Shown piece after piece: positions 2,736 to 53,026 of a stretch of DNA of 64,000 nt; position 1 is the first letter of the stretch; every line of letters starts with the position of its first letter. Source of the DNA: Candidatus Iainarchaeum sp. (GTDB lineage Archaea > Iainarchaeota > Iainarchaeia > Iainarchaeales > UBA10219); NCBI GenBank assembly GCA_018304425.1, contig JAGVWE010000002.1:62001-126000 (forward strand), given 5' to 3'. The notes beneath the pieces were generated by a model. The model made no database searches, was not told the DNA's origin, and was given only the letters and a program-made list of their open reading frames with translations. A program made the position numbers and the translations under genes.

Positions 2736-3526
2736 TCCACAACACCTTCTTCCGCCGCCCGGGCACCGGCTTCCATGTCGCCGCTATTGCCTTCCACGGC
2801 ATACTTTTTCTTCAACGCTTCCTTCTGCAACTCGTACACTTTTTTCACGTGCTGGAACGCGAGTTTCTGGGATTCCTCCCACTCCTTCTGCGTCATCAAG
2901 CCATCCAACTGCAGCAAGACCACCTCGCCGAGGTTGGGCAGGATGGCCATGGGGATGTCCACCGCGTCCGGGGCGTCCTCTTCGGCCTTGTTGAGGTCCA
3001 CCAGCAGATGGCCTCCCGCCTTGCCGACGCCGATGCCCGCGACCAAGTCCCTCATCGGGATGCCCGCGTCCGCCAGCGCCACGGATGCAGCCGTCAAGGC
3101 CGCGACCCGCGTGCCCGCGTTGCTGTCCAGGATTTCCACGTCCACGTCGATGGCCGTGTTCGGAAACCGCTCCAGGAAAATCGCACGCGCCAAAGCCTCT
3201 CCCGAGACCTTCGAAATCTCGATCTCGCGGCGGCCCGGCTTCGGGTTCTTCCGGTCAGGCACCGAAAAGGCAGCCATCCTGTAGGTGTAGCGCACGATGG
3301 CCTTATAGGGGTTAGCCAGGTGCTTGGGCAGGCACTCCCTTGGCCCGTAAACGCTGGCCAAGACCTTGTTCTGCCCCCACTCCACGTACGCGGAACCGTC
3401 CGCACGCGGGATGACTCCCACTTCGACCTTTATCTTCCGCAACTCGTCCGCCTTGCGGCCGTCAAGCCGCTTGCCTGACTTGTCCACATAGGTCACTGTT
3501 TCTTCGCTTCCAGTTTTTTTCGCCAT
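2732..3526 (-). CDS. rrp41: Exosome complex component Rrp41
   Basis: RLDGRKADELRKIKVEVGVIPRADGSAYVEWGQNKVLASVYGPRE...GRREIEISKVSGEAL. Confidence 0.96.
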   Translation of the reverse strand: MAKKTGSEETVTYVDKSGKRLDGRKADELRKIKVEVGVIPRADGSAYVEWGQNKVLASVYGPRECLPKHLANPYKAIVRYTYRMAAFSVPDRKNPKPGRREIEISKVSGEALARAIFLERFPNTAIDVDVEILDSNAGTRVAALTAASVALADAGIPMRDLVAGIGVGKAGGHLLVDLNKAEEDAPDAVDIPMAILPNLGEVVLLQLDGLMTQKEWEESQKLAFQHVKKVYELQKEALKKKYAVEGNSGDMEAGARAAEEGVVE

Positions 3527-50896: not shown

Positions 50897-50955
50897 GCCC
50901 CCTTGAGCGCAAGCGAAAGGGGGCAAGTCCACAGGTGCCGGCTGACTGGCAGCCG
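50897..50955 (+). other. Tandem hairpins immediately upstream of tRNA-Cys
   Basis: GCCCCCTT(gagCGCaaGCGa)AAGGGGGC at 50897-50924; CGGCTG-ACTGG-CAGCCG at 50939-50955. Confidence 0.7.
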
Positions 50956-51026
50956 CGGAGGTGGCAGAACGGCTATGCATCGGGCTGCAGACCCGAAGAT
51001 AGAGGGTTCGACTCCCTCCCTCCGCT
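50955..51026 (+). tRNA. tRNA-Cys (GCA)
   Basis: GCGGAGG...CCTCCGC acceptor; anticodon arm CGGG-CTGCAGA-CCCG; T-arm GAGGGTTCGACTCCCTC. Confidence 0.92.
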
Positions 51027-51064
51027 TTAAACGCACCGGAAATGTACCATCAATAGTTCTAAAA

Positions 51065-51101
51065 GTCCCAAAAGGGAATCCACTATAACAAGGATTGAAA
51101 C
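51065..51101 (-). repeat. Single CRISPR-repeat-like sequence (37 nt)
   Basis: Reverse strand GTTTCAATCCTTGTTATAGTGGATTCCCTTTTGGGAC; GTTTCAATCC.../...GGATTGAAAC is the hallmark end of many type I/III repeats; no second copy seen. Confidence 0.5.
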
Positions 51102-51198
51102 TATTTGGGGGCATTCGGCACCAAGATTGCTTTAAGCGCCATAATAACGTTTTTCATTATTTTAGGTCGTTAGCGGTTTTTGCGGTGGGCGGCGGATT

Positions 51199-51421
51199 TA
51201 CGGCTATTGTAATAGCCGTAGAATAAGGGTTTGGCGCCTATTGTAGTAGGTGCAATGGATAGCAAAGTGCTCATTGGCGGGCAAACAGTATCTCTATGGG
51301 CATAGAGATATCTATGGTTGTAGACAGGGTGAATCGGCAGAGGTTCGTTGTATTGAGCAATACCGTGTCAATTATTGCCCAAAATAATGGGCAACACAGT
51401 ATATACATGGATATGTATATA
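51199..51421. other. Cluster of six or more near-perfect palindromes/hairpins
   Basis: TACGGCTATT-GT-AATAGCCGTA; GCGCCTATT-GT-AGTAGGTGC; TATCTCTATG-GG-CATAGAGATA; GTATTG-AG-CAATAC; TTGCCCA-N6-TGGGCAA; TATATACAT-GGAT-ATGTATATA. Confidence 0.85.
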
Positions 51422-51452
51422 TACCTTCCCATGTATAGGTTGCTGTGGATGA

Positions 51453-52073
51453 GTGCATATGGTTAACCTGGCTGCGCCCAAGACCTTCCAGTTCATCGAG
51501 TACGTGTTGGACCAGAAAACGTTTACCCAGTACCGGGCGGCAAAGGAACTGCACCTCACCATGCCCTTAATCAATCAGGCCACCAATTACTTGCTGAAAA
51601 GGGGCTTCATTGCCCACGACGGAAAACAATACAACTTGAGGGACGCGGCCGGACTCATCGCCTCGATTCACTTGTTCCGCGACATGAAAGACCTGCAACT
51701 CCTTGAAATACACACGTCCCTGGAAAAAGAAAAAGCCATGGCGTCCCTCCAAGCAACGACGGCCGCCCCCATCTACTGCCTGGACACGGCGCTGAACAAT
51801 TATTCCAACTGGTGGCGGTCCAACCTCGTGTGCGCCTACGTTGAACCCCAAGCCCTGGACGAAATCCACATGACCTTCCTCTACCATCCAGGCAATGCCA
51901 CTGTGCTTAGGGTCTTCAAAGAAAAACCAAAAGTGGAAAAATTCTTCGAAGCCCGCGGCCAAAGATTCACCGCCAAAACCAGGACCGTTATCGACATGGT
52001 CTGCGACAAACAACTAAACGCAGTAGAACCCTTATTCAGGCAACTATGGGGGCGGGACGTTGCCAACCCTTGA
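51453..52073 (+). CDS. Winged-HTH protein, putative AbiEi-like antitoxin/regulator
   Basis: FIEYVLDQKTFTQYRAAKELHLTMPLINQATNYLLKRGFIAHDGKQYNLRDAAGLIASI; 3' end overlaps nucleotidyltransferase ORF by 14 nt. Confidence 0.6.
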   Translation: MHMVNLAAPKTFQFIEYVLDQKTFTQYRAAKELHLTMPLINQATNYLLKRGFIAHDGKQYNLRDAAGLIASIHLFRDMKDLQLLEIHTSLEKEKAMASLQATTAAPIYCLDTALNNYSNWWRSNLVCAYVEPQALDEIHMTFLYHPGNATVLRVFKEKPKVEKFFEARGQRFTAKTRTVIDMVCDKQLNAVEPLFRQLWGRDVANP

Positions 52074-52797
52074 AGAACGCTATCCAAAAGAAATTACTGA
52101 TTTATCCCTTGTTGAACTCAAGAAGTTCCTGGCCTGGTGTAAGTCAAGGATACGAAAAACCGTGCCAGTCATCGGCGGCTGGGCCGTTTATGCCTATGCA
52201 CCGAAAACGGGCTCCATTGACATTGACATCGCAATCGACAAAGTGGATGAACCACCCATAAAAGGCTTCTTCAAAGAAAACGGGTTCAAGCGGAAAGAAG
52301 ACGAACCCAACGTTTACTTCAAAGAAATCACGACCGCCGCTGGCCGGACGGAAACCATCCACTATGACGTCTTCTATTCAGACCATGTCTTCAAAATCAG
52401 GGAAGCCAGCATTTCCTTCAATCTGCTGGACCGCTACTCGCAGGAAATTTCTCTGGAGGCCCAACCCATGCGCGTGCCAACCAAAGAACTCCTCCTCATC
52501 CTCAAGGTCGCCGCCTACCGGGACAGGGAAGACAATGCACGAATGGGACACTTCCGCCGGCCCCCCGGTGAACGCGAACGACTCGAAAGCAAAATAGAAA
52601 AAGACAAAGCAGACATCCGAAACCTCTTCGAAACGGCTCCAGACCAAAAAAGAATAAACGACTTACTCGAAAAAACGGGTTTCAAACAAGCCTACACCCA
52701 AAGCCTGAAGGAACTCGGAATAATCAAGACCCAAAGCAAAACCATTACCGGGAATGCCTCCATAGCAAAAGCCGAGGAACCCAAAGATCCGCGTTAA
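52060..52797 (+). CDS. Nucleotidyltransferase-fold protein, putative AbiEii-like toxin
   Basis: VIGGWAVYAYAPKTGSIDIDIAIDK matches GG-x-DhDh NTase motif; VPTKELLLILKVAAYRDR; TTG start. Confidence 0.7.
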   Translation: MPTLEERYPKEITDLSLVELKKFLAWCKSRIRKTVPVIGGWAVYAYAPKTGSIDIDIAIDKVDEPPIKGFFKENGFKRKEDEPNVYFKEITTAAGRTETIHYDVFYSDHVFKIREASISFNLLDRYSQEISLEAQPMRVPTKELLLILKVAAYRDREDNARMGHFRRPPGERERLESKIEKDKADIRNLFETAPDQKRINDLLEKTGFKQAYTQSLKELGIIKTQSKTITGNASIAKAEEPKDPR

Positions 52798-53026
52798 CCT
52801 TATAAGTTTGAAAAGCGTATAAGCTTACGAGAAACGAAAACACCGCGTTTGCGTCAGGAGAACCCTGGCTTCGGAGCGCTCCCTCCGCTCTCCCGTTCCG
52901 TCTGCTTTAAAACGATTTTGGTTGGAGGTTACTTGTATGACCATCAGAAGGGATTTAGAAAAGCTGCGGTCAAACTGATTTTGGCAGCCATCGGATTGGC
53001 GGTTTTTTCTGTGGGGATGAAACTTC

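Follow-up and report, generated by a model that had tools for sequence, protein, structure and literature searches.

A divergent AbiE/MenAT-like gene pair, putatively a toxin-antitoxin module, next to tRNA-Cys in a Candidatus Iainarchaeum genome

Two overlapping genes downstream of a tRNA-Cys gene in a Candidatus Iainarchaeum genome most probably (roughly three chances in four) constitute a toxin-antitoxin module of an archaea-wide family, acting in the manner of AbiE and MenAT. The pair lies in a 64,000-nt stretch of DNA, hereafter the window, from a genome of 7 contigs and 1.48 Mb with a completeness of 92.6%, and is separated from the tRNA gene by ~430 bp of non-coding DNA (Table 1). Its first gene codes for a wHTH protein and its second for a nucleotidyltransferase (NTase), and the ORF list confirms that the two frames, 51453-52073 and 52060-52797, overlap by 14 nt, as the first-pass annotation had it. 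The frame of the wHTH gene stands as described there, and its start should probably be moved: the homologues begin at residues matching the internal ATG at 51459 (MVNLAAPKT), which is for that reason preferred over the less likely GTG at 51453.

Table 1. Features of the tRNA-Cys-proximal locus, in window positions
Feature	Position	Strand	Basis
tRNA-Cys (GCA)	50955..51026	+	ARAGORN, Rfam
11-bp direct repeat, copy at tRNA 3' end, CTCCCTCCGCT	51016..51026	+	exact match
Solo CRISPR repeat, CRISPR-DR7 type	51065..51101	+	Rfam 43.6 bits, cut-off 37
Palindrome A1, TACGGCTATTGTAATAGCCGTA, 10-bp perfect arms	51199..51220		hairpin search; unique in genome
Palindrome A2, imperfect, CTATTGTARTAG core in common with A1	51234..51253		inspection of sequence
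Double operator B (predicted), two palindromes, centres 18 bp apart	51289..51324		sequence comparison
Palindrome C1, GTATTGAGCAATAC	51350..51363		hairpin analysis
Palindrome C2, TTGCCCAAAATAATGGGCAA	51375..51394		hairpin analysis
Double operator D (predicted), adjoining the wHTH gene, palindrome centres 18 bp apart	51400..51437		palindrome-pair tests
wHTH protein, putative antitoxin/autorepressor	51459..52073	+	ORF 51453-52073, homologue starts, predicted model
DNA-polymerase-beta-type NTase, putative toxin, TTG start	52060..52797	+	ORF, model, motifs
Distal copy of the 11-bp direct repeat, perhaps left over from an attachment site	52879..52889	+	exact; 23-nt match at 78%

The wHTH/NTase pair recurs across archaea with a patchy distribution. 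A profile-guided search of ~85,000 genomes found 29 relatives of the NTase, all in archaeal records except one labelled Falkowbacteria, whose contig belongs to an order-mate in the genome set; since this search relied on one short motif, the absence from bacteria is suggestive and should be read as such. Members occur in Diapherotrites, Micrarchaeota, Methanocellales, Nitrosopumilus, Thermoplasmata, Bathyarchaeota, and Freyarchaeota, and no relative was found in the viral contig collection searched. In 27/29 loci the NTase gene is immediately preceded by a full wHTH gene, the exceptions being one cut by a contig end (L054) and one retaining the C-terminal half alone (L037). Within the phylum, strong matches were obtained in 7 of 87 genomes, one of the seven being broken, and their neighbourhoods differ.

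A double operator is conserved upstream of the wHTH gene across these archaeal loci. This conservation implies autorepression and is the best argument for the wHTH protein being a probable repressor of its own operon, in the way of AbiEi and Rv2827c. When the 115 bp preceding the wHTH gene were searched for palindrome pairs with a spacing of 10-45 bp, scored for mutual similarity, the best pair had its centres 18 or 19 bp apart in 21/29 loci, a spacing found in 6.7% of trials with shuffled sequence (binomial p ~6e-19, a somewhat optimistic value, like the one that follows, given that some of the 29 loci are related). A separate test limited to spacings of 14-24 bp, which is not the basis for the spacing claim, gave p ≤0.05 in 14/29 loci and in 0/28 control regions (Fisher p 6e-12). 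The family half-site reads TWTC-R-N-TAW. The first-pass annotation had pointed to AbiEi, which binds inverted repeats in its own promoter and represses it; here such repeats are present and conserved, and their binding by the wHTH protein is predicted from that conservation. In Mycobacterium tuberculosis, Rv2827c has a functional promoter in which four inverted repeats are arranged as two sets (PMC7319586).

The control region of the window is unusually elaborate, as the initial description of a palindrome field 3' of tRNA-Cys had suggested. Positions 51027-51452 contain five perfect hairpins with arms of at least 7 bp, against 0.30 expected from dinucleotide shuffles; their hairpin coverage was reached in none of 300 such shuffles, and the segment ranks first among the 299 tiles of the window. 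These palindromes, of which there are about eight in all, are not a product of chance. It is quite possible, nevertheless, if not the favoured view, that most of them are decayed relics of old operators or of partial duplications, devoid of present function. Operator D alone adjoins the gene, B resembles the operator of a paralogue, the flanks of B and D have sequence in common (score 30.5, with a background maximum of 28.5), and the A and C palindromes do not match the family half-site. On the other hand, in the absence of selection one would expect arms as long and perfect as the 10 bp of A1 and B1 to have eroded, and the promoter of Rv2827c works with four repeats. In the gene-proximal operator D the C of the family half-site (TWTC) is lost symmetrically, and both B and D lack a TATA box at the position where the paralogue with the B-like operator has one. 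A half-site matrix built from the other loci did not single out the palindromes of the window and is therefore not used here as a claim of binding.

Three copies of the pair exist in the source genome. The operator of paralogue 2 (L004, 2357-3564) is identical to window positions 51289-51328, that is, site B, at 36/40 positions (90%), with one pair of differing positions being symmetric (C..G against A..T), and the B-type sequence occurs at just these two places in the genome. The wHTH gene of paralogue 2 has deletions and a frameshift, and its NTase frame is intact; dN/dS between the window and paralogue 2 is ~0.25-0.29 (NG86), with dS near saturation, which reads as purifying selection. A window antitoxin acting in trans at both loci would explain a broken antitoxin gene next to an intact NTase. 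A bolder extension, which we regard as speculative and on balance unlikely, is that the window locus serves as a regulatory hub, its antitoxin repressing and neutralising paralogue 2 in trans through the shared operator B, within an archaea-wide toxin-antitoxin family invisible to present-day defence annotation. At the third pair (L005), the upstream segment 1740-1800 and positions 3464-3510 look duplicated (ATATAAAT..TTCGACGATTGACGTAT...), the latter lying upstream of a neighbouring CopG-like/PIN-domain (VapBC-like) pair. The family profile also found NTases that belong to the superfamily but are more distantly related, at C7:7092-7622 and C6:26569-26739 of the source genome.

The predicted structure of the NTase (pLDDT 90.8) points to a MenT-type fold. 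Its best Foldseek match in the PDB is MenT1 (8an4/8an5, E 1.2e-6, probability 1.00), with TM scores of 0.51/0.61 against 8an4, followed at lower rank by ANT(2'')-Ia, TM1012, and LnuA. Searching PDB sequences with the family profiles gave essentially wHTH matches alone and none for the NTase. At the sequence level, GG, S-x-D-x-D, and K/R-D-x-x-D (motif IV) are present in all 26 NTase members compared, and motif III (K-x-x-A-x-x-x-R) was recognised by pattern in 25 of them; in the window these read KVAAYRDR for motif III and KDKAD for motif IV. AbiEii proteins have been defined by motifs I/II of the form hG[G/S]x15DhD with a motif-II arginine, together with motifs III (K...R) and IV (+DxxD) (PMC3985639). 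Measured against this definition, motifs III and IV are found here and the 15-residue spacing is not, GG and DhD being 13 residues apart in 20/26 members and 14 in 5/26; the motif-II arginine, four residues before the Asp, is absent in all 26. The window motif III also fits the form published for COG4849, KLxAaxxR (PMC3985639), except for V in place of L, and in the COG4861-COG4849 pairs, which are possible relatives, the regulator likewise precedes the NTase.

Database models gave a similar picture of divergence. The window NTase reached no cut-off in Pfam, NCBIfam, or PADLOC; the AbiE models of these collections matched neither window protein, and the AbiEii model PF08843 did not match this NTase. 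Across the family, PF08843 hit one of 26 members, with an E value of 0.005 that does not reach the curated cut-off, one NTase member had an AbiEii match at E 2.7e-4, and the NTase profile aligned with canonical archaeal AbiEii at E 0.022, the reversed control giving 0.14. The Pfam model for aminoglycoside-2''-adenylyltransferase matched the window NTase weakly, at E 0.001, below cut-off. Together with ANT(2'')-Ia and LnuA among the lower-ranked structural matches and with the similarity of the wHTH to MarR/TrmB, it would fit an enzyme of the antibiotic-modifying type acting on small molecules, or one acting on proteins, governed by a MarR/TrmB-like regulator and not a toxin at all. We consider this improbable: structurally MenT1 is the closer match, the NTase has an AbiEii-like motif IV, the genes overlap in an AbiEii-like order with the antitoxin first, and in part of the family AbiEi models hit the regulator's C-terminal domain.

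That C-terminal domain is the less clear part of the putative antitoxin. The protein is modelled with confidence (pLDDT 94.9) and has the wHTH domain expected of an AbiEi-type antitoxin, and its structural matches in the PDB span the wHTH part alone; searches of the model against the PDB and viral models returned nothing clear for the C-terminal domain. The full-length profile aligned with canonical archaeal AbiEi at E 1.8e-5 (hhalign), a value discarded as support for AbiEi homology once a split by domain showed that the wHTH carries the score. The C-terminal domain alone gave E 0.016, with one of five column-shuffled controls reaching 0.034. PADLOC AbiEi models match this domain in three members of the family (L045, L038, and L033; best E 1.1e-5) and not in the window protein itself. 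These alignments link the domain weakly to AbiEi, and homology between the two is likely, not proven.

Taken as a whole, the AbiE-like reading offered by the first-pass annotation is mostly supported: a conserved if patchy pair, the AbiEii/MenT-type fold and motifs, and the double operator speak for it, and the curated cut-offs, the motif-II arginine, and the weak AbiEi link of the C-terminal domain against it. With AbiE (AbiEi/AbiEii, COG5340-COG2253, type IV) the module has in common a bicistronic arrangement with the wHTH antitoxin first and the NTase second, the hGG...DhD, K..A...R, and +DxxD motifs of the family NTases, and inverted repeats in the promoter. It differs in falling below every curated cut-off, in a GG-DhD gap of 13-14 residues and not 15, in lacking the motif-II arginine, and in having two complete 18-bp palindromes 18-19 bp apart where AbiE has two 23-bp repeats. 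The source genome, moreover, has separate loci in which an AbiEi_1 (PF09407) protein stands beside an AbiEii-type NTase (L071, C6:68223; L084, C1:17496). The likeness to MenAT of M. tuberculosis rests on the predicted structural match with MenT1 (Rv0078A), on a serine in the place of MenT1 T39, discussed below, and on a promoter whose inverted repeats form more than one set, as in Rv2827c-Rv2826c. Unlike the wHTH protein, MenA1 is small and has no wHTH, identity to MenT1 is ~14%, and R37 of MenT1 has no counterpart here. The module is not a textbook AbiE and is best filed as a divergent AbiE/MenAT-like sister family: one of the sequence features that define AbiE, and a match to its curated model, were looked for and are lacking.

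If these proteins act as a toxin and antitoxin, the following scheme may be envisaged from the computed features. The downstream gene would produce a DNA-polymerase-beta-fold NTase toxin that most likely stops growth by adding nucleotides to RNA, for instance at a tRNA end. The upstream gene would produce a two-domain protein whose wHTH binds two neighbouring palindromes ~18 bp apart, thereby repressing the operon, and whose C-terminal domain neutralises the toxin. In the window, this control region would have expanded to its set of about eight palindromes, including the operator B common to the paralogous locus. As to neutralisation, an invariant serine (Ser52) precedes the first catalytic Asp of the NTase by two residues, in the same place as T39 of MenT1 and S78 of MenT3, at both of which phosphorylation has been proposed (PMC11375011). 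By analogy, we infer that the antitoxin might work by promoting phosphorylation of Ser52, beside the catalytic Asp pair.

The control region also holds a solo CRISPR repeat that the first-pass annotation had passed over. Between tRNA-Cys and this repeat lie 38 nt, and the wHTH start follows ~360 nt downstream. The repeat is the sole copy found in the genome, where its 3' end matched one place, and the window has no second, degenerate copy. The final 22 nt recur unchanged in the eight repeats of an array located terminally on a phage-like contig (L068, 3964-4504; IMGVR_UViG_3300033516_000258); this array runs into a predicted structural gene and may be phage-borne or an assembly chimera. Ectopic repeats near toxin-like loci are known from CreTA (PMC9458426), and a genuine repeat sited between tRNA-Cys and the wHTH gene could in principle give rise to a crRNA-like guide with control over the pair. 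This we hold to be highly improbable: a single repeat is present and no repeat-spacer-repeat unit, the toxin here would be a protein whereas that of CreTA is an RNA, neither Cas1 nor Cas6 (PF10040, a model that misses many relatives) was found in the 92.6% complete genome, and the 39 nt following the repeat, a would-be spacer, are no more complementary to the operon than background. The simplest reading is that the repeat is a relic.

Lastly, the position beside a tRNA gene had led to the proposal of a tRNA-associated island. The 11-bp direct repeat at the 3' end of tRNA-Cys and downstream of the pair was verified, with 0.08 occurrences expected per 64 kb and none of 100 shuffles having two, and is thus unlikely to have arisen by chance. 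The drop in GC after tRNA-Cys, from ~60% to ~45%, is likewise real. As the lysine-pathway genes downstream are equally AT-rich (GC3 of 0.54 for aspartokinase and 0.53 for dapB, against 0.57 for the NTase), composition is no mark of a foreign island, and this line of argument was dropped. Inspection of the ORFs listed for 47-57 kb revealed no integrase. Lying beside a tRNA gene is not characteristic of the family, as just one further locus of the 29 (L028) has a tRNA at a distance of a few hundred bp or less. The claim of a tRNA island, resting on one direct repeat, is weak. That a small mobile island bounded by this repeat (51016-52889) brought in the pair as cargo is doubtful, even though the exactness of the repeat, the patchy distribution of the pair, and the CRISPR repeat, as debris, would agree with it; the nearest genomes available for comparison are of the same order. 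Such an origin is compatible with the toxin-antitoxin explanation preferred here.

According to a published report (PMC12988326), CRISPR-Cas and restriction-modification are scarce in DPANN archaea and AbiE is enriched there. Because the wHTH/NTase pair occurs in several archaeal phyla and yet falls below the models used for counting, archaeal AbiE-like systems are probably undercounted, and what standard annotation misses here would be a distant archaeal cousin of a bacterial defence system. The conserved double operator offers a concrete binding code that can be put to the test, and the serine found invariably next to the catalytic Asp residues opens the question of whether a MenT-type phosphorylation switch may be ancient.
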